Shown piece by piece: positions 6,761 through 51,766 of a stretch of 61,542 nucleotides of DNA. The DNA comes from Fodinibius salsisoli. Its GTDB lineage: Bacteria; Bacteroidota; Rhodothermia; Balneolales; Balneolaceae. The stretch lies in contig NZ_JAGGJA010000019.1 of NCBI RefSeq assembly GCF_026229185.1, positions 1 to 61,542 on the forward strand, in the 5' to 3' direction. Within the stretch, counting starts at the first letter, position 1; each line of letters opens with the position of its first letter. Position numbers and translations under genes: made by a program. The notes beneath the pieces were generated by a model. The model saw nothing but the letters and a program-made list of their open reading frames with translations, was not told where the DNA came from and made no database searches.

Positions 6761-8014
6761 ATGGCAAATGATGTATCGAAACAAATAATTCAATCTTTTG
6801 CTGAGATAGCAAAGGATAAAGACATCGGAAAAGATTTATTATTGTCGATTCTCGAGGATGTCTTTCGAACCATGATTCGTAAAAAGTATGGTTCCGATGA
6901 AGCATTTGAGGTGATTTTAAATGCGGATCGGGGAGAGATCCAGATACTCCATATTCGTGAGGTGGTACCTGAAGAAGAACTGACGGATGAGGTACAGGAA
7001 ATTACCATAGATGAGGCTCTGAAGCACGATCCTGACCTGGAACTCTATGATGAGTTTGCACAGGAACTGTCGATTACCGATTTTGGCCGTCGTGCGGTTA
7101 TGATGGCCCGCCAACAGCTTGCTCAGCGCATTCGCGAGATTGAGAAAGATAATATTTTCGAAGAGTACTCCGATCGTGTAGGGGAAATAGTTCTTGGAGA
7201 TGTGTATCAGATTCGAAGCCGTGAGATGCTGATTAATCATAATGGTGTAGAATTGGTGCTGCCTAAGAAGGAGCAGATTTACAAAGATCGTTACCGCAAG
7301 GGCGATACCATCCGGGCCGTGGTCAAAGAGGTTAAGCGGTATAACAGCAATCCATCGGTGATTATTTCGCGGACTTCCCCCTTGTTCCTCGAGCGTTTGT
7401 TTGAGAATGAAATTCCGGAAGTTTTTGATGGCATCATTGAATTGGTTCGGATTGCACGTGAGCCGGGAGATCGCTCAAAGGTGGCTGTCATGTCGCACGA
7501 TGAGCGGGTAGATCCCGTCGGCGCTTGTGTCGGGATGAAAGGTATCCGAATTCACGCTATCGTTCGCGAACTTCAGAATGAAAATATTGACGTCATCAAT
7601 TATACCGACGACCAGCATGAGTTTATAAAGCGGGCCTTGCAGCCGGCCGAAGTGTTGAGTGTCGATCTGACGGAGGATGGAAGCCTGGCGAAGGTCTTGG
7701 TGCCCGCCGATGAAGTATCCAAAGCCATTGGGAAAGGAGGCGTCAATATTCGATTGGCCTCCAAGTTGGTAGGGTGTGAAATTGACGTCTATCGTGAGGT
7801 TGAAGAGGAAGATGATATTGACCTGCAGGAGTTCGAAATTGACTTCGGTCCAGAGGTTATTCAGTTGCTTCATGATATCGGCTGTGATACGGCTCGACAG
7901 GTGTTAGAGCTTGATGAAGAGGAAATCGTTCGCAGAACTGAGGGAGAAATTACCGAAGACCAAGCAGAACGCATCATCGATATTATTGCTTATGAATTCG
8001 AGGATGAAGATTAG
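6761..8014 (+). CDS. nusA: Transcription termination/antitermination factor NusA
   Basis: The product is 417 residues, with a good Shine-Dalgarno (AGGAG) 9 nt before ATG. The order is an N-terminal RNA polymerase-binding domain (about 1-125), S1 domain (about 135-200, VGEIVLGDVYQI), KH1 (CVGMKGIRIHAIVREL near 250), KH2 (AIGKGGVNIRLASKL near 323), and a short C-terminal helix-hairpin-helix (DIGCDTARQVLELDEEEI). It modulates pausing, termination and antitermination. The acidic C-terminal repeats of E. coli NusA are largely absent, which is normal outside proteobacteria. Confidence 0.95.
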   Translation: MANDVSKQIIQSFAEIAKDKDIGKDLLLSILEDVFRTMIRKKYGSDEAFEVILNADRGEIQILHIREVVPEEELTDEVQEITIDEALKHDPDLELYDEFAQELSITDFGRRAVMMARQQLAQRIREIEKDNIFEEYSDRVGEIVLGDVYQIRSREMLINHNGVELVLPKKEQIYKDRYRKGDTIRAVVKEVKRYNSNPSVIISRTSPLFLERLFENEIPEVFDGIIELVRIAREPGDRSKVAVMSHDERVDPVGACVGMKGIRIHAIVRELQNENIDVINYTDDQHEFIKRALQPAEVLSVDLTEDGSLAKVLVPADEVSKAIGKGGVNIRLASKLVGCEIDVYREVEEEDDIDLQEFEIDFGPEVIQLLHDIGCDTARQVLELDEEEIVRRTEGEITEDQAERIIDIIAYEFEDED

Positions 8015-8135
8015 TTCTGAAACTTAGATTTCCCCTGAATAAGTTTTACCTTATACTTGCAACCGATAAGGAAAGGTTCTAAGGGCCGAATTAAACAGAT
8101 AACATAGGAAACGCACTTTTCAGAAATACATTTAT

Positions 8136-11100
8136 ATGTCGCCAAAGAAAAAGCCAAAACGGTTATTTAAAGTTGCATCTGAATTTAACGTATCTACGAC
8201 TTCGATTGTAGATTCGCTATCGGAAGAAGGCTTTGATGTTACCAATAAGCCCAACACCAAAGTTACACCCGAAATGTACGAGGTGCTGGAAGAGGTATAT
8301 GGCGTTGACAAAGCTAATAGCCAACAGCATGCTAAGGCAAAAGAAGATTATGCCAGCCGACGTGATCAGATTCGGTCCAGCCGTAATGAGAGTGTTTCTA
8401 TAGAAGATAGCCTTGAACCCCTCGAGGATGATCTTCCTTTGGAGCCCGAGGAGGATTTACCTCTTGAGCCCGAAGAAGAGGAAGAGCCTGAAGAGATTGG
8501 AGGACTGGAACCTATAGAAGGTGAGGAGGAAGAGGACACCCCGGAAGAGGAGATTGAGTCTGAGGAAGAGTCCCAACCAGAGGAAAAAGAAGAACAGCCT
8601 GAGTCCGTTGAAGAAGTTGAAGCTGAGGAAAAAGAAGAAACGCCAGAAGAAAAAGAAGAAGATACGCAGCCCGTTTCGGAAGAAATAGAGGAAGAAGAGC
8701 CAGAACCTGAAGAAGACGTTGAGCCTGATCCTGTAGCGGCGGAAACGGAAGAAGACCAGGAAGATGCCGATGTTGTTGAGGAGGAAGAAGATACTCAAGA
8801 ACAAGCTGAAGAGCCTCAAACTGCTGAAGTCAGTGATTCCGAAGAGGTTGACCATTCCGAAGAGGTCGAAGGTGAGACCGATGAAGGCGAAGATACGTCA
8901 GATGTAGAGGTTGAAGAGGAAGAGGCTGATGAAGAGGAAGAAGATACGCAGCCCGTTTCGGAAGAAATAGAGGAGGAAGAGCCACAATCAGAAGAAGATG
9001 ATGAGCCTGAGTCTGCTGAAGTAGAGAAAGAAGAATCTGACGACGAAGATGAGGCTGATGAAGATGAAGAGGAAGAAACGCGAGAACAAGGAGTTATCCG
9101 TGGACGTGCTGGTCGTCTGAAAGGAACCAAAGTGGTAGGTAAGGTTACGATAGACGACAGTAAGCCCAAGCGCCGTAAAAAACGGAAGCGCAAGAAAGAT
9201 CGCCGTGATGAGGATGAAGGATCCAATACGAAATCGGCCAAGCGTGAAAAGAAAAAGGGTAAGAAGAAGAAAAAACGTCGTAAGCGTAGAGGCAGCCGTG
9301 TTGACGATGAAGATGTAGAACAGAAAATGAAGGAGACGCTGCGTAAGATGCAGTCGTCAGAAACAGTCGGTAGCCGTCGTCAGAAGCGACGAAAGCAGCG
9401 TAAGGAAGAACGCGAGGAAGAAGAACAGCTGCAGGCTGAACTGGAAGAGTTAGAAGAAGGTCTGTTAGAAGTTACAGAATTTATAACCGTAAGTGATTTA
9501 GCCGAACTGATGGATGTAAAGGCTAATGAAGTAATCACTACGTGCATGAATCTGGGCATGATGGTTTCAATCAATCAGCGTCTGGATGCCAGCACAATCG
9601 AACTCGTAGCTGAAGAATTCAATTATGAAGTAGAGTTTGTCGATGCTGAGGAAGCTATCGAAGAGATTGAGCTCGAAGAAGATGATCCGGAAGATTTACG
9701 GCCCAGAGCGCCAATTATTACCGTTATGGGACACGTTGATCACGGAAAGACTTCGTTGTTGGACTATATCCGAAAGTCGCAGGTTGCTGAAGGCGAGGCC
9801 GGTGGAATTACCCAGCACGTAGGTGCTTATGAGGTTAAAACTGATGATGGACGCCCCATTACATTCCTTGATACACCCGGTCACGAAGCTTTTACAGCGA
9901 TGCGTTCGCGTGGTGCCCAGGCTACTGATATTGTTATCCTGGTTGTTGCCGCTGATGACGCTGTGATGCCCCAGACCATTGAGGCTATTAACCATGCCAA
10001 GGCGGCCGGCGTATCTATCATTGTTGCGATTAATAAGATGGATAAGCCCGGTGCTAAACCTGAAAAGATTAAGCAGCAACTGGCTGAGCACGATGTGATT
10101 GTTGAGGAATACGGCGGTACAAATCAGGCAGCCGAGGTATCGGCAAAGACGGGAGAAGGAATTCCTGAGTTGTTAGAAAAAGTGCTCATTGAATCTGAGC
10201 TGATGGAGCTTAAGGCCAACCCCGATCGTAAAGCCGATGGCGTGGTGCTTGAAGCGAGAGTCGATAAAGGTAAAGGAACAGTCGCGAACATTCTGGTTCA
10301 AAATGGTACCCTGCGTGTGGGAGATTCATTTGTTGCAGGACCTTGCTTTGGCCGCGTTCGAGCCATGGAAAATGAACTTGGTAACCGTGTGGAAGCTGCA
10401 GGGCCTTCAGAACCTGTTCAGCTAACAGGATTTGATGATATTCCGCAAGCCGGTGATAAAATTGTTGTGCTCGAGGATGAGAAGAAGGCTAAAGAAATTG
10501 CCAGCCAGCGACAGCAAATTCGCCGCGAGCAAGAATTGCGTCAATCTAAGCATCTGTCACTGGATGATCTCTCACGCCGACTGGCCCTGGGTGAAGTTTC
10601 CGATCTGAACCTTATTATTAAAGCCGATGTGGATGGTTCTATCGAAGCCCTTTCCGGTTCGTTACAGAAGTTAAGCAATGATGAAGTATCCGTTAATATT
10701 GTCCATAAAGGAGCAGGAGCAATTACGGAATCCGATGTACTGTTAGCCTCAGCTTCCGATGCTATTATCATTGGCTTCCAGGTACGGCCAACTTCCAATG
10801 CACGATCGGTAGCAGATAACGAAGAGATCGATATTCGATTATTCAGCGTTATCTATGATGCCGTTGACGAAGTCAAAGATGCGATGGAAGGTATGCTCTC
10901 ACCAGAAATTAGCGAGAAACTCCTTGGAAATGCGGAAGTGCGAGAAATATTCAAGGTCTCCAGTGTGGGAACCATTGCAGGCTGCTATGTAACCGACGGT
11001 AAAGTGAATCGCAATAATCCGGTTCGCATTGTGCGCGATGGAGTGGTGATTTATGACGGTGAAATTGACTCGCTTAAGCGGTTTAAAGATGACGTCAAAG

Positions 11101-42489: not shown

Positions 42490-44931
42490 TTAATTGACTC
42501 CAACTCTATTTTGCTCTTCCTGAGACCCAGACTTTACTTCGATTTTTTCAAACTCATTACTGCCAAAGTTCCATGTAAAAGAAAGAGCAACTGATCTGGC
42601 ATCAAAGTTATACCTCCAGAAAGAATTAATATTGGAACTTTCAATATCATTGTTAGCTTGCAATATATTGGTATTTAAGATATCTGTGGCTGATAATCTC
42701 AGTGTACCCTGACCGTTTCCTATCTTTTTTTGTAAGCCAAGATTTAAAGCCCCCTGGGGTCTGGACCTTGCAATGCCCCAAACTGACTTTGACTGGTAAA
42801 AGCCGGACACTTCAAACGAAAAATCTTTTGGCAGATCGATCGTATTCACGACATTTGAATTGAATCCAGCCGCCTCTCCGGAAAAATTATCTTGCAAGTG
42901 TGCGGAGCGGTAAAATTGGTATCTACCGGTAGCACTGATACGCAGGCTCCACCAAGCCAGCGGTTCCAGGGGGAAACTTGTTGTCAGTGAGTAGGTATCT
43001 AAATAGTCTAAATTTTGAGTACTATAGGTTTGTTCATTGGTTTGAGTATTTATTGCAGGCTGCCACTGAGCAATTTCATCGTTGCTGTGTGTATAAGAAA
43101 GAGTGACCAAAAATTGTTTTCTGGAGTACCCCAAACTAAATCCATCACTGATGGCGGATTTCAGGTTTGAATTACCTGATAGAAAAGTCTTTGGATCAAC
43201 AAAAAAAACAAAAGGTGCCAGGTCCAAGAAGGTAGGACGGGTGGTTCTTCGGCTGTAAGAGAAATTTACATTATTATCTTTGTTGATACTCTTTTGGATA
43301 AATAAACTTGGAAATAAGCGACCTGAATGTTGGTCAACTACATTTCCTTCACTTACCGAGTTTAAATTTCGGTTGATATACTCGTAGCGAATCCCGCTAT
43401 TTATTTGTAAGCCATCAGTAGGAGTTATATTCGTAGAAAAATATACAGCCCCGATATATTCATCCAGATTAGCCTTATTTGTAAAGGCGTTATTAACCAC
43501 AATATTGCCATTAATATTGTCGGTAACCCTAACGTCATTAGAAAAGTCAGAAAAAGTACTTTTCATTCCCGATTCAAGCGTTAGCTTTGGGGATATCGTG
43601 TGTTTATAATCGAGCCTGGCAACCCAAATGTTAATTGGAGTTTCTTTTTCCACGTTGATAGCATCAGGGTCCGTTGGAGATAAATTTCCTGTAATCACTT
43701 CATTCCGGTAAGTGGATGGGTTGCTGTTTTTATAATACAGGTAATCCAAGTCAAAGTTTAGTGATCTATCTTCACTGAACGAATGATCAACACCAAAATT
43801 TACGATCCCATTTCTCCACAAGTTCTTTTCATTTATACGTTGCTCCATAATAAGCATAGAGCTGGGGCTGGAATGATCCAGGGTTTCTGAAATATCTGAA
43901 GTATCCCAATTTCTTTGGAATCCTGTCAATAAAAGATCAGCATTCGTTTTTTCAGTTAAAGTATATTCAAAACCCACCGAAATATTCTGCACGGTTGTAA
44001 TAGGATCGCGGAAATTTTCGCTGCGGATGGTCTGGGTAAAATCATCCTGGGTCAAGAACCTTTCGCCAAACATAATTTCTTCAGAGTTGTTGTAGTTGAT
44101 GGAATAATTTAAAAGGAAGGCCAATTTCTTTTTCCTGAGACTGAATGCAAAATTTCCACCAAGGGTTTCGGCACTGTTATATCCAACATTTGTACCCAAT
44201 GTGCCGGTATATCCCAGGTCAGAATATTCTTTCATCTCGATATTTATGATTCCTGCATCACCTTCAGCTTCATACCTTGCAGGAGGTGTTGTTATTAGCT
44301 CAATCTTTTCTATATTCGCTGCGTTCATGCCATTAAGCATGGTGATAATAGATTCCAGTGGTAATCGAACGGTTTTGTCATTAATCATTACCAAGACCCC
44401 CGATTTCCCGTTAAGTGATATATCACTACTTTGACGATTCACCTGAACACCGGGAGATTTTTCCAAGACCTCCAATGCGCTACTGCCCGAAGAAGTGACA
44501 CTCCGTTGAACGTTTACGACCAGACGGTCTATTTCTTGTTCATATAAGGGTCGCCTGGCTGTTTTAACTACCTCTCCAAGTTGTTCAATTGACTCTTCAA
44601 GAGTTATTTTTTTGATGCTAAATTGCTCATTGTTTAATTCTTCAATAAGGAGAAGTTCTTCATGGGTTTTAAATCCAACCATTGAGATTGAGATTATATA
44701 AGACCCGTGGTTTATATCCAAAAACTGGTAATTCCCGAGTTCATCCGAAATAGCCCCCTTTACTAACGCAGAATCGGTTTCATTCAGGATCAGTACATTT
44801 GCTGAAGGCAACGGCAAACCTTCCCCATCAACTACGGTTCCCTTGACCTGAACTTGCGCTACTACTTCGGTGGTCAGGAACCCTACAAAAAATAAATAGA
44901 TCATACATTTGGGTAGCGTATGCTTTTTCAT
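42490..44931 (-). CDS. TonB-dependent-receptor-like outer-membrane beta-barrel protein
   Basis: The product is 813 residues from ATG 44931; an ATG at 44958 is in frame. Signal peptide (ending VVAQVQ), a CarboxypepD_reg-like domain (VKGTVVDGEGLPLPSANVLIL, near 27-47), then a plug-like domain (LEVLEKSPGVQVNRQS, LNGKSGVLVMINDKTVRLPLES, about 135-185, IEKIELITTPPARYEAEGDAGIINI) and a C-terminal barrel ending in a TWNFG-type strand and a soluble tail. This is the outer-membrane beta-barrel family found in Bacteroidota, not a classical siderophore receptor. Substrate unknown. A TonB-family transducer gene lies at 32402-33094. Confidence 0.83.
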   Translation of the reverse strand: MKKHTLPKCMIYLFFVGFLTTEVVAQVQVKGTVVDGEGLPLPSANVLILNETDSALVKGAISDELGNYQFLDINHGSYIISISMVGFKTHEELLLIEELNNEQFSIKKITLEESIEQLGEVVKTARRPLYEQEIDRLVVNVQRSVTSSGSSALEVLEKSPGVQVNRQSSDISLNGKSGVLVMINDKTVRLPLESIITMLNGMNAANIEKIELITTPPARYEAEGDAGIINIEMKEYSDLGYTGTLGTNVGYNSAETLGGNFAFSLRKKKLAFLLNYSINYNNSEEIMFGERFLTQDDFTQTIRSENFRDPITTVQNISVGFEYTLTEKTNADLLLTGFQRNWDTSDISETLDHSSPSSMLIMEQRINEKNLWRNGIVNFGVDHSFSEDRSLNFDLDYLYYKNSNPSTYRNEVITGNLSPTDPDAINVEKETPINIWVARLDYKHTISPKLTLESGMKSTFSDFSNDVRVTDNINGNIVVNNAFTNKANLDEYIGAVYFSTNITPTDGLQINSGIRYEYINRNLNSVSEGNVVDQHSGRLFPSLFIQKSINKDNNVNFSYSRRTTRPTFLDLAPFVFFVDPKTFLSGNSNLKSAISDGFSLGYSRKQFLVTLSYTHSNDEIAQWQPAINTQTNEQTYSTQNLDYLDTYSLTTSFPLEPLAWWSLRISATGRYQFYRSAHLQDNFSGEAAGFNSNVVNTIDLPKDFSFEVSGFYQSKSVWGIARSRPQGALNLGLQKKIGNGQGTLRLSATDILNTNILQANNDIESSNINSFWRYNFDARSVALSFTWNFGSNEFEKIEVKSGSQEEQNRVGVN

Positions 44932-45062
44932 ATGTAAGAGGTTTTTCCTGCGTACCAAATGCTAACAGGAGTTGAAATTTAATAGAAAGATTACAAGTGA
45001 ATTCCATAAACATTATTTCAAGCAATTATTATTGGTTGATGCAACTGTTCTAAAATAAATAC

Positions 45063-46457
45063 TTATTTCAATAAGCTGGAAAGAGGTTTTATGTTTTGGT
45101 TCAGATGGAAGAAATTATCGGGATCGTATTTGCCTTTAATTTTAGCTAACCGATTATAGTTATCCCCATACGCTTTCTGAACCAAGTCATCGCCCTCCTC
45201 CCCGAATCCGGAAAAATTCACATACATCCCGTCTCTGGAAAAACGCTTCATTTTATCCAGGAATGCTCGCGACCATGAAATGACTTTTTCAGAGTCAGCC
45301 GGATCATCCCAAATGGAATCTACACTCAGTAGGAATGTTGTATCCCGGCTTCCAAATGCCGTATCCTTGCTGGCAATTCGATTCATCTCTCTGCCATAAT
45401 GCCATATAGCCAACAACATCGATGGCACCGGTCTGTTTTTAGCTCCTTCAATAAGAGCACTTCTCGTTTCTTTATTTAGGGAGGCCAGATCCTGTGATTT
45501 GAAATAATAGTATCGTTCATGTTTTGGGAAAAATGGATCAAACATGGAATTGGCTGTTGTATAGGGGATCTTACCACTCAAATCCAGAACAGGGGTATCA
45601 ATTTCTCGTAGTTCTTGGAATGCCTTTTCACCTTCATCCGGATCACCGGCATACATGGCAGAGATGACGATGACATGTTTTCCCCTTGCCTCTTCGGGAA
45701 AAGCATCGATATCCGGTACCGCCCAGAATAAGGCCTGAGAACTGATTTCATCCGGCGAGGATATCATAAAATCTCTCCATGTAGACAATACATTCTCAGC
45801 AATTTCAATGGGGTACATGATTGCACACATCATTACAGTGGGACCCACGTTGTGAAGATGAAATACAAAGGAGGTGACAATCCCAAAGTTTCCGCCGCCA
45901 CCGCGCAGCGCCCAGAAAAGATCTTGGTTTTCGGTTTGGCTGGCTGTAAGTAATTTGCCATCGGCTGTTACCATTTCAATTGAGTGCAGGTTATCACAGC
46001 TGAGCCCATGTTTTTTTCGAAGCCATCCCAATCCTCCCCCCAGGGTAAGTCCGGCAACTCCTGTTGTAAATACCACACCGCCGGGAGCAGCTAACCCAAA
46101 TATCTGTGTTTCTCGATCCAGATCCCCCCAGGTTGCTCCGCCTTGCACTCGAGCCAGTTTCTGTGAGGGATCTACATGTATTCCACGCATTTGAGACAGG
46201 TCAATCACCATTCCGTCATCACAAAGCGCGCTTCCGGCCACATTATGTCCCCCGCCACGAACAGACACTTCTATATCATTTTTTCGTGCAAATTTTACCG
46301 CATCTATCACATCAGCTGTACCGGAACACTGTGCGATCAGGGCGGGATGTTTATCAATATATCCGTTCCAGACTTGTCGTACCTCATCATAATCATAGTT
46401 GTCTGGTTGAATGAGACGACCTCTAAACGTTGACTGCAATGCTTCAATATTTATCAT
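45063..46457 (-). CDS. FAD-binding oxidoreductase, berberine-bridge type
   Basis: The product is 464 residues. The PCMH/FAD-binding-4 domain has EVSVRGGGHNVAGSAL near 62-77 (His of RGGGH is the usual covalent FAD ligand) and VVFTTGVAGLTLGGGLGWLRKKHG near 125-150. The second covalent Cys of bicovalent enzymes is absent. The BBE C-terminal segment is YVNFSGFGEEGDDLVQ then YGDNYNRLAKIKGKYDPDNFFHLNQNI split near 430-456. No signal peptide is seen, so it is probably cytosolic. It oxidises an alcohol or amine with O2; substrate unknown. Possibly linked to the SnoaL-like protein and the two AraC regulators downstream in position. Confidence 0.85.
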   Translation of the reverse strand: MINIEALQSTFRGRLIQPDNYDYDEVRQVWNGYIDKHPALIAQCSGTADVIDAVKFARKNDIEVSVRGGGHNVAGSALCDDGMVIDLSQMRGIHVDPSQKLARVQGGATWGDLDRETQIFGLAAPGGVVFTTGVAGLTLGGGLGWLRKKHGLSCDNLHSIEMVTADGKLLTASQTENQDLFWALRGGGGNFGIVTSFVFHLHNVGPTVMMCAIMYPIEIAENVLSTWRDFMISSPDEISSQALFWAVPDIDAFPEEARGKHVIVISAMYAGDPDEGEKAFQELREIDTPVLDLSGKIPYTTANSMFDPFFPKHERYYYFKSQDLASLNKETRSALIEGAKNRPVPSMLLAIWHYGREMNRIASKDTAFGSRDTTFLLSVDSIWDDPADSEKVISWSRAFLDKMKRFSRDGMYVNFSGFGEEGDDLVQKAYGDNYNRLAKIKGKYDPDNFFHLNQNIKPLSSLLK

Positions 46458-46571: not shown

Positions 46572-47069
46572 CTATGATTGACTAAGCGGGGAGTGATGCT
46601 CATGTACAATTTTCCATTCTCCAGCATCATTTTTAGCAAATACCAAGCTTATCTGATCGTTGATGACCGCCTGGTCTTCTTCAAATTTCAAATGAAAGTC
46701 TGAATGAAAAGTGACAACAGCTACATTCCCGTGATATATAGCAATTTTCATATTATTTCCGTCCATTTTTACAACTTCTTGGACACTTCCAAACACTCCG
46801 CGTTCAAAGGCCTCATTTTCCTCGCCACCGTTCCGAGGTGCACCTTGTTTAAATTCAGTGAATTTGGGGCCGTATGCATGGAAAGAGATTAATTTGTCTA
46901 CATCCCCATCTTTGATACTCTCCACAATTTCATTCCACGTCTGCATGATCTCGGCTTTTTCTTCCGGGTATTCTGTCATAATGCCGTCTGCGGATTGGGC
47001 CTGAAGGGGCGTTAATCCCCAACAAGAGATAAGGGCACACATCAGAGTAATTTTATATAAATAGTTCAT
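46572..47069 (-). CDS. Secreted SnoaL/NTF2-like protein
   Basis: The product is 165 residues. A signal peptide (about 1-24, ending TPLQAQSA) precedes an NTF2-like cone fold: AEIMQTWNEIVESIKDGDVDKLISFHAYG, then EVVKMDGNNMKIAIYHGNVAVVTFHSDFH and WKIVHEHHSPLSQ at the end. These domains bind small ligands or act as cyclases/isomerases. Its start is 171 nt from the AraC-type gene. Functional link to the FAD oxidase (115 nt away, same strand) is likely by position only. Confidence 0.7.
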   Translation of the reverse strand: MNYLYKITLMCALISCWGLTPLQAQSADGIMTEYPEEKAEIMQTWNEIVESIKDGDVDKLISFHAYGPKFTEFKQGAPRNGGEENEAFERGVFGSVQEVVKMDGNNMKIAIYHGNVAVVTFHSDFHLKFEEDQAVINDQISLVFAKNDAGEWKIVHEHHSPLSQS

Positions 47070-47238
47070 AGTTATGATTGTTTAGGCAGTTAATAATTGG
47101 TGTTGGTTTATATATACTGCCGTTTGGGGTTCTCTTCCACTTCATATGTTTCAAATAATGCAACATTTGTTGCATGGCTTAAAAAGCAGACAAAAAGCTG
47201 GGGAGAGAGGGGCTACAGCTTCGTTTTTGCTGTATTAA

Positions 47239-48351
47239 TTACACTTCAACTTTTATTTTGGAGGGAGAAATACCATACTTCTTTTTGAAACATTTGGCAA
47301 AATAGGATGGGTTAGAGAATCCCAATTCATATGCAATTTCTGATATGGTTAATTTTTTTTCTTTAATGAGGTTAAGTGCATATTTCAATCGGAGGTCCCG
47401 GACAAATTGAACCGGCGAGCTATTAGACATAGAATTTAATTTTCGATACAATTGTGCCCTGCTCAATCCCATCTCTCTGCTTAATTTGGCAATTGTAAAA
47501 TTGTCTTTAGAAATGTTCACATTTATATGGTCAAACAACTGCCGAATGAAATCCTGGTCAGACTTGTCGATTACTGTAATATCGGGCATATCCATTTCTG
47601 TTCGGCATAATACGCTTATCTCTTGAAATTCAATCGGTAGTGCAATTTTACCATTTTCAGCAATTTTACAATACCACATACTCTGATTAAGTGCTTGTTG
47701 AAAAATCCGGTCGTCAGTAGTAGTAACAGGTTCTCCAATACACAAGCCCATTGTGAACCTGAAGTTCCATTCATTGGATGTATACTCAACTTTGTGGGAG
47801 AGAAATTCTTCCTGGATTTCTTTTGCACAAAGAAGACAGCTTTCCGGTGTTTTAAAAACAGCAATGACTCGATCATAAGATAATTGATTTACAACGTTAC
47901 CATTGTTTTTTAAAATGAATCGTTCCGCAGCTTCACGTGGTTTCCGGGGTAGTTTTAGTTCATCAAAATCAATAAAGTCAGACAACCGGGTGACGGCGAT
48001 GATATCCAGGTTCAGGATAAATCGATATCCACCATCTGGTGTTCCGTTTTCATCTACAACTAAATCCTCTCTGTTTCTCAGGTCTTTCCCCATAAAGGCT
48101 GAGTAAAGCCCTCCCTCCACTTCCACAATATTGCATGTTTTTATCCCATTTGCTAAAAGATGTGTCTTATGAATGGCCTCTTTGTTTGGGGCCTTCATCA
48201 AACAGAAAACTTTGCCACTGTCTTCGTTAACCCAATATGCCAGGTATTTTACATGAAATTTCTCCTGAACAGCTAAATCTTTTAAATGAGCCTTTTCGGC
48301 TTCTTCAATTTTTATTCCCGGCGTATCATGACAATCCATGTATAAAGGCAT
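47239..48351 (-). CDS. AraC-type regulator with N-terminal DUF4242 and cyclase-like domains (copy A)
   Basis: The product is 370 residues. An N-terminal DUF4242-like (nickel-binding-type) ferredoxin-fold domain (about 1-80, PLYMDCHDTPGIKIEEAEKAH, YLAYWVNEDSGKVFCLMKAP) is followed by a domain like a degenerate adenylate/guanylate cyclase (about 140-245: SYDRVIAVFKTPESCLLCAKEIQEE, FRFTMGLCIGEPVTTTDD), lacking clear catalytic residues, and a C-terminal AraC helix-turn-helix (about 285-370: LSREMGLSRAQLYRKLN, ISEIAYELGFSNPSYFAKCFKKKYG). I do not know this combination. A paralogue with the same plan follows at 48462-49571. Confidence 0.75.
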   Translation of the reverse strand: MPLYMDCHDTPGIKIEEAEKAHLKDLAVQEKFHVKYLAYWVNEDSGKVFCLMKAPNKEAIHKTHLLANGIKTCNIVEVEGGLYSAFMGKDLRNREDLVVDENGTPDGGYRFILNLDIIAVTRLSDFIDFDELKLPRKPREAAERFILKNNGNVVNQLSYDRVIAVFKTPESCLLCAKEIQEEFLSHKVEYTSNEWNFRFTMGLCIGEPVTTTDDRIFQQALNQSMWYCKIAENGKIALPIEFQEISVLCRTEMDMPDITVIDKSDQDFIRQLFDHINVNISKDNFTIAKLSREMGLSRAQLYRKLNSMSNSSPVQFVRDLRLKYALNLIKEKKLTISEIAYELGFSNPSYFAKCFKKKYGISPSKIKVEV

Positions 48352-48461
48352 GGTAGTAATTGTTAAGAGTGTTATTTTTTTAATATAACTCTCAAAATCA
48401 GGTTATGTACTAATACTTTTAAAGTCTCTCTCTGTAATTCTACAGAACCAATTTTGTGAAA

Positions 48462-49571
48462 CTAAACAGCAACATTGGAAGCATTAACCCCATACTTATC
48501 CCGGAAACATTTTGAGAAATAGGAGGGATTGTTATACCCAATTTCCAGGGCTATTTCGCTAAGATTGTATCTGTTTTCTTTGATCAGTGAAAGGGCCCTG
48601 TTCAAGCGTAAATCACGAATAAATGCAACCGGAGAACGTCCGGTCGTAGCCTTAACTTTCCTGTAGAGCTGCGTACGGCTGATGCCAATTTCATGGCAGA
48701 GTCTTTCAACATTAAAGGCATTATCGGAGAGATTTTTCTCTGTTATATCAAAAAGCTTTTTGAGAAACTCTTCTTCTGCCAATTGTATCGCTTTTAATGC
48801 TGTTCTGCTTTTAGGTTTCTCCTCTGTTGTAGTGAATTTGTTAACGATATTCGATGCAACAATCTCTCCGTCATCGGCAATTAAACTAAGCCGTCGGGCA
48901 AGCACTACCGTCTGCTCAAAAAACTGGTCGCTCATCGTTACCGGCTGGCCACCTCCAATCCCGATTTTGAAGGTGATATTCCAGGATTCATCCTCCTGTT
49001 TATCAATCCGTTTTAATAACTCCTTTTGAATTTCGATGGCACAATCCATCGATTCTTCAGCTTGAGTAAAGACGCACAGAATACCATCATAGTCAGGGTT
49101 TTTAATCTCTCTTCCCTCATAAGAAGGAATAATTTGCCGAATCAGTTTTTTGGGTTTGTAGGGAATGATTAAATGCTTCATATTATTCGAACCTGCAGCT
49201 TTTGTAATCCCCCAAATATTAATCGCAAGCACAAAGCGGTATGCTTTGTCTAAATCGCCGTTTTTCCCCAATACAATTCCATGATCCAGCTGATGTGATT
49301 CCCCCATAAACAATTTATAAAAGCCGCTTTCAACCTTTACAATATTGCAGGCGATATTTCCATGAGCTTCTTGGTGAACTCCTTCGCAGGACTCCTTATC
49401 AGGTGCCTCAATGAGACAAAAGATCGTACCGGCTTCCTGGTTCACCCAAAATTGAATATACTTGACGCCGTATTTATCCTGTACAGACCTGTCTGCCATA
49501 TGCCCCCGTTTTACCGCATCGATGCTAATATCAGAAACGATATGATAATCCATGAATAAAGGCATAAGCAA
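48462..49571 (-). CDS. AraC-type regulator with N-terminal DUF4242 and cyclase-like domains (copy B)
   Basis: The product is 369 residues, same architecture as copy A: DUF4242-like (MPLFMDYHIVSDISIDAVKRGH, QFWVNQEAGTIFCLIEAP), cyclase-like (YDGILCVFTQAEESMDCAIEIQKELL, FKIGIGGGQPVTMSDQ) and AraC HTH (LCHEIGISRTQLYRKVKA, LSEIALEIGYNNPSYFSKCFRDKYG). The two are about a third identical by eye, so the duplication is old. 110 nt separate them on the same strand. The first domain probably senses a ligand or metal and controls the neighbouring oxidase and receptor genes; this is inference. Confidence 0.75.
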   Translation of the reverse strand: MLMPLFMDYHIVSDISIDAVKRGHMADRSVQDKYGVKYIQFWVNQEAGTIFCLIEAPDKESCEGVHQEAHGNIACNIVKVESGFYKLFMGESHQLDHGIVLGKNGDLDKAYRFVLAINIWGITKAAGSNNMKHLIIPYKPKKLIRQIIPSYEGREIKNPDYDGILCVFTQAEESMDCAIEIQKELLKRIDKQEDESWNITFKIGIGGGQPVTMSDQFFEQTVVLARRLSLIADDGEIVASNIVNKFTTTEEKPKSRTALKAIQLAEEEFLKKLFDITEKNLSDNAFNVERLCHEIGISRTQLYRKVKATTGRSPVAFIRDLRLNRALSLIKENRYNLSEIALEIGYNNPSYFSKCFRDKYGVNASNVAV

Positions 49572-50983: not shown

Positions 50984-51766
50984 TCAATCCATCATAAACT
51001 GTTCCAGGGCTTGGGATACTTTTCGTAAAGCCCCGGTTTCTCCTTTGTTATTTATAAAGAGATACACCGTGTCACCGTTGGGTTTAGCAATACTGAACAA
51101 CTCAAATCCCCGCATAGATCCGTCCAGGTTTACGCTGAGCTGTCTGAAGAAGTGCTGATACCGAGCATCAAGCAATTGATCTGAGCGCACAAAGTGGTAA
51201 AATTTCAGAAGGTCATCCAGGTTAGAATACATGCCGCCACTGCCTTTGACCAGCCAGGGGGTGGGACCCCAATTGGGCGGAATATTGGGGAGCCCAATAA
51301 TTTCAGGTCCCGCACCCACAGTAAATTCTCGAAGTGCATGCCCGCCATGTTGCCCGTAGGATCCGGTATGCGACATCCCCGCCGGTTCAAAAAAGTGTTG
51401 GATCAGAAAATCCTCATACGTTTGCCCCGAAACCAATTCCACTACGGCAACCAACACGCCAAAGGCCACAAATGCACAATCGTAGCCCGAACAGGATGAA
51501 TCTGAAACAAGAATCATAACTTGTGTTGAGTTTACTTCGAATTCATTGGTATCCATAAATTGTTCGGCTTCTTCTGTGGCCTGCAAAGCAACCGATAATT
51601 CTAAAATTTCCTTCCGTAAATATATCGATAGAACATTTCTGAATTCGGATCGCCAGAGAAGAGGGACAACCCAATCATCATCTTTCTTAAGTACCTTATA
51701 AACCCACTCGTCCATATCGTTTGGTACCCACATGCTCGCAATTACATTCGTATCGACAACAATCAT
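50984..51766 (-). pseudogene. Chimera of a PIN-domain toxin and a serine-hydrolase (beta-lactamase-like) C-terminus
   Basis: Residues about 1-102 are a VapC-type PIN domain: VVDTNVIAS (Asp 5), RSEFRNVLSI (Glu 41) and SGYDCAFVA (Asp 96). From residue about 103 the frame continues as a beta-lactamase-related serine hydrolase: VELVSGQTYEDFLIQHFFEPAGM, WLVKGSGGMYSNLDDLLKFY. The hydrolase half lacks its N-terminal SxxK motif and the PIN half lacks its last strand. So a deletion joined two genes within one open frame. The product of 260 residues is probably inactive as hydrolase; PIN activity is uncertain. Downstream gene order and the antitoxin remnant support decay. Confidence 0.75.

Follow-up and report, generated by a model that had tools for sequence, protein, structure and literature searches.

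Tandem AraC-type regulators with an SCO4226-like putative sensor and a degenerate cyclase domain, and a predicted operator ahead of a neighbouring oxidase operon

The 61,542-nucleotide stretch of Fodinibius salsisoli DNA analyzed here (contig NZ_JAGGJA010000019.1, positions 1 to 61,542; hereafter the window) carries two tandem genes whose products, P0001 and P0002, combine an SCO4226-like ferredoxin-fold domain (PF14026), a degenerate class III cyclase-homology domain, and an AraC-type helix-turn-helix (HTH) domain. The best reading of the two proteins is that they are paralogous one-component regulators of the AraC type. Between P0001 and the SnoaL-like gene that precedes a berberine-bridge-type oxidase gene lies a conserved 41-bp direct repeat, and the features described below are probably best explained if the regulators control the oxidase operon through this repeat as operator, with the pseudo-cyclase domain serving as a relay.

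Both proteins matched PF14026 at the N terminus (E values of 5.2e-20 for P0001 and 3e-16 for P0002; 71.9 and 59.8 bits against a curated cut-off of 28.5) and HTH_18 (PF12833) at the C terminus (1.5e-20 and 4.7e-19), the Pfam cut-off being passed by both, and they share 37% identity with each other. In the Pfam scan of the two proteins, no cyclase family matched the middle region, and no cupin-type or other known AraC ligand domain scored. AlphaFold models, built from 6 sequences each, contained three domains in both proteins, with mean predicted local distance difference test scores of 75.9 (P0001) and 76.4 (P0002), predicted template modeling scores of 0.64 and 0.66, and low-scoring linkers. 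The modeled N termini aligned with SCO4226 at Z scores of 14.7 for P0001 (root-mean-square deviation (rmsd) 1.3, 80 residues) and 14.0 for P0002 (1.3, 80), and the modeled HTH domains aligned with 3lsg at Z scores of 15.8 and 17.4, respectively. An earlier note, made from the letters of this DNA alone, had proposed that two paralogues share a nickel-binding-type ferredoxin fold, a cyclase-like domain, and an AraC HTH, next to an oxidase and an NTF2-like protein. The profiles and the two predicted structures bear out this shared architecture, including the N-terminal fold and the HTH, and Pfam also recovered the SnoaL_3/NTF2-like and FAD_binding_4/BBE neighbours; the alternative that the N terminus is a known AraC ligand domain found no scoring profile. 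Within the 4.85-Mb genome, P0001 and P0002 were the only two matches to PF14026 at E <= 0.001. The P0002 reading frame extends to 49571 with an upstream TTG; because the MP[L/I] start motif is the exact start of the open reading frame (ORF) in 25 of 30 related ORFs, the start was set at the ATG at 49565.

A profile of the middle region of 14 relatives matched solved class III cyclases, namely 3mr7 at 2.5e-22, Ma1120 at about 1e-18, and Rv1900c at 3.6e-10. Taken alone, the middle of P0002 matched 3mr7 and Ma1120 at about 1e-8, and that of P0001 matched 3mr7 at 2e-5. Structure prediction, named in the earlier note as a check on this region, gave a cyclase fold in both models, with Z scores against 3mr7 of 15.1 for P0001 (rmsd 4.7, 156 residues) and 14.2 for P0002 (4.7, 154). 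As to a known Pfam domain, Guanylate_cyc was matched by 0 of the 14 members of the relatives' alignment, and weak Pfam matches (the best to the Cas10/Cmr2 palm, 0.0016, in 4 of the 14) were set aside, the profile matches to Protein Data Bank entries being far stronger.

The catalytic positions, which we take to be two metal-binding Asp residues, a base-selecting Lys, and a transition-state Asn and Arg (D/K/D/N/R), were placed on the unfused relative L161. Among 27 AraC-fused proteins the first Asp is kept in 13, Lys in 10, the second Asp in 17, Asn in 5, and Arg in 15, in an alignment where some proteins carry one extra residue close to the second Asp. The full set of five was found in 0 of 58 AraC-fused proteins, and both metal-binding Asp residues were found in 16 of the 58, with family f29 contributing 4 of 29 only. 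By contrast, all seven unfused relatives have D, K, D, N or Q, and R, and the two that were scanned (L161 and the L158 copy in G407) pass the PF00211 Guanylate_cyc cut-off. Because the set is incomplete in the fused proteins and present in the unfused ones, the middle domain, for all its cyclase fold, is highly unlikely to act as an enzyme; with all five residues in none of the 58, the AraC-fused proteins were not classed as catalytic cyclases. The word “degenerate” in the earlier note is thus apt for the catalytic set, and its cyclase fold is supported by both profiles and models.

It is conceivable, though we think it unlikely, that the domain is instead a nucleotide receptor that binds ATP, GTP, or cyclic AMP without turnover and couples binding to DNA recognition. 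The 16 fused proteins with both metal-binding Asp residues include all five members of an orthologue group termed P1, and P0001 retains both. Against a receptor stands family f29, in which the pair is rarely kept and the SCO4226-like residue set is almost invariant. Nucleotide sensing, as raised in the earlier note, therefore fails as a family-wide property and retains some footing in P0001 itself.

In the SCO4226-like domain, Asp-6, His-8, Asp-25, Trp-40, Cys-50, and His-64 (D6, H8, D25, W40, C50, and H64) occur in every one of 65 relatives and His-22 (H22) in 64 of them, where the relatives were located by a start motif that includes position 6 and partly position 8 and that no candidate failed. 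A phmmer alignment showed that these residues are present in SCO4226 too. In SCO4226 the dimer core comprises Met5, Trp41, Tyr50, Leu52, and Val78 (PMC4186839). Because strand residues alternate relative to this published core, we infer that D6, H8, and C50 face the opposite way, pointing to the helices on which H22, D25, and H64 lie, so as to form an inner site.

If PF14026 binds Ni(II) as SCO4226 does, the proteins could be nickel-responsive regulators of genes for metal homeostasis. The PF14026 matches lie far above cut-off, and SCO4226 has four Ni bound in each dimer and is Ni-induced (PMC4186839). Moreover, its Ni-2 ligand His23 corresponds to the conserved H22, a point in favour of some overlap with nickel chemistry. 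The Ni-1 ligands suggested by its authors to be conserved are Asp43, Ser46, and His76 (PMC4186839). The first is Asp in 43 of 65 relatives and the second Ser in 5 of 65; the third is never His among the 65, 62 of which have Ile or Val there, positions 74-76 having been placed by counting from the SCO4226 alignment and the structural-alignment range. The window proteins have Asn42 (both at the Asp43 position), Ser45 or Ala45, and Val76, and so lack the Ni-1 ligand set. They score 48.6 and 49.2 bits against NF033706, the SCO4226 nickel-binding equivalog, below its cut-off of 125; no nickel transporter occurred among the neighbour proteins that were Pfam-scanned, a scan that was not systematic; and the affinity of SCO4226 for nickel is given as low, 10 μM (PMC4186839). 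A nickel response is accordingly quite improbable. Of the metal sensing envisaged earlier, the nickel form is thus weakened by the His76 and Ser46 positions, and H22 and, less uniformly, Asp43 speak for what is left of it.

The gap between regulator and SnoaL gene was aligned for eight loci, all from the window's order, seven belonging to family f1 and the other (L114) to f4; a 41-bp block was largely unchanged amid diverged DNA. In the window it holds two AACAAATG-like half-sites 21 bp apart, and the window repeat has 1 mismatch in 16 fixed letters. These eight loci were used to train a matrix, with 45 other regulators held out, of which four are f1 (L115-L118) and among which related species are not independent. 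Over about 4.1 kb on both strands, counting sense-strand positions from 6 bp before to 120 bp behind the regulator end, the top-ranked site fell within this stretch for 29 of the 45 regulators and a site among the top four for 35 of 45; column-permuted control matrices gave a mean of 0.93 and a maximum of 6 in 300 trials. Because seven of the eight training loci are f1, the site tests were repeated without the four f1 loci, giving 25 of 41 against a control mean of 0.76 and a maximum of 6 of 200.

A motif obtained de novo from the 45 stretches, with no training loci and no selection, was TGAaTCAAaaTTataatTtTTTGAAttAAaTG, which also reads as a direct repeat. It ranked the window site 1 of 123,022 positions (20.4 vs 11.6), and the motif from the 41 stretches without f1 again placed it first (17.3 vs 11.2). 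In the other seven training loci, the de novo scan put the known site first in six. Self-comparison of the 35 top-four sites peaked at a spacing of 21 bp (identity 0.60, against 0.43 at 20 bp, 0.40 at 16 bp, and <=0.36 at others), a peak that is partly circular in that the sites were chosen with the training matrix; the same circularity applies in part to a matrix from 25 non-training sites, which ranked the window site 1 of 123,004. The plain repeat pattern with 3 mismatches occurred in the window 2 times vs 1.32 expected, not above chance, and therefore significance rests on the rank test and the de novo motif. The operator sequence itself, within 3 mismatches, occurs once in the 4.85-Mb genome.

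The element mostly starts 8-42 bp past the regulator stop codon, as would also be expected of a conserved RNA or termination signal with which the regulator gene ends. That explanation is very unlikely, given where the element lies in other loci. L113 has two copies, one before SnoaL at 1.1 kb behind the regulator and the other before a separate oxidase gene at 5.8 kb, which suggests that the predicted site tracks target genes rather than regulator 3′ ends; in L151 a weak candidate precedes an SCO4226-like gene upstream of the regulator. Furthermore, the element is a direct repeat in the de novo motif, and no Rfam family matched the intergenic site region at gathering scores. Additional sites lie between SnoaL and the oxidase in L004 and, more weakly, in L112. 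Generic promoter and terminator scans returned 7 terminator-like sites vs 4.8 expected and 16 promoter-like sites vs 14.4 expected (no excess), and neither was used.

Of 53 loci, 33 have a same-strand oxidase gene downstream of the regulator. They comprise 7 of the 8 training loci (about 6 kb off in L113), 4 of 15 others, L173, and 21 of 29 in f29, some of these with another gene or a further regulator in between. As the window genome contains three BBE-domain genes in total, the adjacency of regulator and oxidase is unlikely to be due to chance. A SnoaL gene is present in 8 of 8 training loci. In f29, BLAST to reference genes identified a bacterial-type globin downstream in 10 of 29 loci, a lone SCO4226-like protein in 5 of 29, and SnoaL in 3 of 29, and at least one of oxidase, globin, SCO4226-like protein, or SnoaL in 28 of 29. 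L117 and L004 and, judged by eye, L173 have a nitrilase-family gene (CN_hydrolase) downstream. The gene for an OMP_b-brl_3 outer-membrane protein behind the oxidase recurs in L109 and L159 and may belong to the operon. In these counts L156, cut by a contig end, figures as a locus without oxidase and is excluded from the site test; L110, the same record as L004, was dropped beforehand, as were unfused proteins from the fused counts; L195, which has an internal stop, was kept throughout; and the array loci L228-L231 stand outside the counts and were read for layout only. In L150 the SnoaL-like gene between regulator and oxidase (7894-8542) carries an in-frame TAA. Elsewhere in the window, an ORF at 50984-51766 on the minus strand looks like a broken or fused gene: it begins with a PIN-like segment (residues 2-56, E 0.0023, short of the cut-off) and continues with a beta-lactamase-family fragment that covers 147-250 of the 329 profile positions. 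Coordinates of the main features are collected in Table 1.

Table 1. Positions in the window of the two regulators, their domains, the predicted operator, and the adjacent genes
Feature	Positions	Strand	Remarks
Regulator P0001	47239-48351	-	370 aa; PF14026, degenerate cyclase-homology domain, AraC HTH
Regulator P0002	48462-49565	-	367 aa from ATG; tandem paralogue of P0001, matching architecture
PF14026 domain of P0001	48118-48342	-	
PF14026 domain of P0002	49332-49556	-	
Cyclase-homology domain of P0001	47611-48039	-	residues about 105-247
Cyclase-homology domain of P0002	48825-49256	-	residues about 104-247
AraC HTH (PF12833) of P0001	47257-47484	-	residues 290-365
AraC HTH (PF12833) of P0002	48477-48701	-	
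Predicted operator	47134-47174	-	between P0001 and SnoaL genes; half-sites 47173-47164 and 47152-47143, direct repeat, 21-bp spacing
SnoaL_3/NTF2-like protein	46572-47069	-	N-terminal signal-like stretch (by eye); first predicted target
Berberine-bridge-type FAD oxidase	45063-46457	-	FAD_binding_4 and BBE; predicted target
OMP_b-brl_3 outer-membrane protein	42490-44958	-	behind oxidase; possible last operon gene

We consider the following working model the most likely. The SCO4226-like domain would be the sensor, its nearly invariant residues D6, H8, H22, D25, C50, and H64 binding or chemically detecting the signal, which is likely to be a small molecule or metal related to whatever the oxidase acts on. 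The former class III cyclase would act as a dimerizing relay, its dimer changing on signal, so that two HTH units could occupy the direct repeat, whose half-sites would lie on one face of the DNA. The outcome would be that the operon of SnoaL, oxidase, and possibly outer-membrane protein genes is switched on. Because the operator lies upstream of an A+T-rich promoter-like block in the window (TATATATAAAC), which is largely conserved across the eight aligned loci, activation rather than repression is weakly favoured. As for the ligand, the variety of downstream genes (oxidase, globin, SnoaL, nitrilase) leads us to guess at a reactive or toxic small molecule, or at a metal or redox signal tied to such a molecule.

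Several observations weigh against the model. In the held-out set the best site lay elsewhere than the tested stretch in 16 of 45 cases, and in 10 of 45 no site of that stretch was among the top four; in longer loci (up to 15 kb) the predicted site was first in 7 of 16 and within the first four in 12 of 16. No convincing site was found, with ranks below tenth, in L003, L151, L157, L173a, L191, L192, L195, or L198; in L173a and L192 another regulator gene comes next. In the de novo scan the known site of L004 came third, behind two higher matches between SnoaL and the oxidase, and that of L109 led only narrowly (16.2 vs 14.1). Either of the two paralogues may be the binder of the predicted site. 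Both metal-binding Asp residues and the Asn position are kept in 5 of 27 fused proteins, which are the P1 orthologues. Finally, the downstream genes vary by lineage among oxidase, globin, SCO4226-like protein, nitrilase, and SnoaL, and a single shared ligand is therefore uncertain.

The three-domain layout is present in at least 16 of 394 sampled genomes of the window's phylum, as delimited by the search tool (including the window's own and one cut by a contig end) and at least 81 of 397 sampled genomes of family f29 of the same phylum, one copy having an internal stop (L195 in G771); the surveys scored the best 5-6 candidates per genome, so that all such counts are lower bounds. Hosts include Rhodohalobacter, Rhodocytophaga, and Carboxylicivirga. 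The window genome belongs to family f1, as does G051; Rhodohalobacter sulfatireducens, the species of L004, is assigned by NCBI to the Balneolaceae, phylum Balneolota. As to the same architecture in other phyla, a search proposed in the earlier note, in the phylum of G446 (Thalassomonas) at least 5 of 299 genomes matched at E <= 1e-35, of which 4 have unfused proteins and 1 (G679) fused ones. The latter lie on a 9-kb contig (C13; L173) with a G+C content of 0.31, two fused regulators, a nitrilase-like gene, and an oxidase, and are probably binning contamination. Unfused forms also occur on rhizobial plasmids (Rhizobium/Agrobacterium/Ensifer), several annotated “nickel-binding protein.” Proteins of about 250-276 residues in L221, L222, L224, and L226 have cyclase-homology and AraC domains without the SCO4226-like domain and adjoin genes that by eye resemble pyruvate dehydrogenase subunits.

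In a tree of the first two domains, 29 AraC-fused proteins stood apart from 7 unfused ones (97% ultrafast bootstrap), and orthologue groups P1 and P2 each received 100%. With the root set, by choice, on the unfused side, the most parsimonious course is a single fusion, after which catalysis was lost. That the fused regulators are instead still-functional cyclases with unusual active sites is exceedingly unlikely, since, for all that their fold is unchanged and their unfused relatives look intact or nearly so, none of the 58 has the full catalytic set and the Asn/Arg pair is replaced, as by Asn/Trp in the P1 group. Tandem copies of the window type occur in four genomes, with a further pair in G814 (L192), and arrays of two to four regulators with gaps under 50 bp occur in at least eight f29 genomes. 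Four arrays were opened; three are followed by similar genes and the fourth by an oxidase. In L228, L229, and L230 three or four different regulators stand in a row, and the L228 array precedes genes for a SoxA/TsdA-type cytochrome c, DsrE, and TauE; the starts of the genes behind the L229 and L230 arrays are similar.

More broadly, we see an even chance that this widespread class goes back to a sensor-cyclase (SCO4226-like plus class III cyclase) that gained an AraC domain, lost catalysis, and so exchanged second-messenger output for DNA binding; that its inner Asp/His/Cys site, and not the published nickel sites, does the sensing; and that one operator with a 21-bp repeat controls detoxifying or catabolic modules (oxidase, globin, SnoaL, nitrilase), with tandem copies perhaps forming heteromers. 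PF14026, labeled “nickel-binding” after SCO4226, would thereby gain a second and probably different role as the sensor of a transcription factor, and the regulators look like a signaling enzyme that has become the relay of a DNA-binding protein. With an operator and target genes predicted, ligand and mechanism are both open to direct testing. A literature search found no paper on the PF14026, cyclase-homology, and AraC layout, which is apparently undescribed as far as searched; the regulators themselves belong to the AraC family and are frequent in Bacteroidota. Their final step, in which an AraC-type protein controls the operon next door, is ordinary, and the sensor, relay, and descent are unusual.

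Among known proteins, SCO4226 of Streptomyces coelicolor shares the ferredoxin-like fold (34% identity in the structural alignment) and the residues D6, H8, H22/23, D25/26, W40/41, C50/51, and H64/65, but it is a lone 82-residue domain, whereas the regulators fuse PF14026 to two more domains and lack the Ni-1 site. The SCO4226-like cyclase proteins of Rhizobium, Agrobacterium, and Ensifer, whose annotation, if any, is mostly “nickel-binding protein,” begin with the same two domains, identically ordered, the best match being collinear with P0002 residues 2-250; they differ in having no AraC domain and nearly complete cyclase motifs. The closest solved relatives of the middle domain are 3mr7, Rv1900c, and Ma1120, although 3mr7 and Rv1900c, from proteins named alpha/beta hydrolase plus cyclase, have that other partner domain and no AraC domain. 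A sister layout is found in L010 (4927-6756), where an alpha/beta hydrolase, a cyclase-like part (seen by sequence match and by eye), and an AraC HTH form one ORF, such that another sensor is joined to the same relay and HTH. The DUF2652 proteins of Bacteroidetes likewise have a diverged class III cyclase fold; they are reported to be single-domain proteins (with one exception) that keep the metal-binding Asp residues (PMC4886424, in whose accessible text the word “AraC” does not occur). The accessible text of PMC2447327 contains none of the terms AraC, helix-turn-helix, and nickel. With the AraC/XylS family the regulators share HTH_18 and a predicted operator that is a direct repeat two helical turns apart, but they have no cupin-type Pfam hit, an SCO4226-like domain and a pseudo-cyclase taking the place of sensor and relay. 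The half-sites of araI are spaced by 21 bp, and directly repeated half-sites about 21 bp apart are likewise what the predicted site appears to contain.

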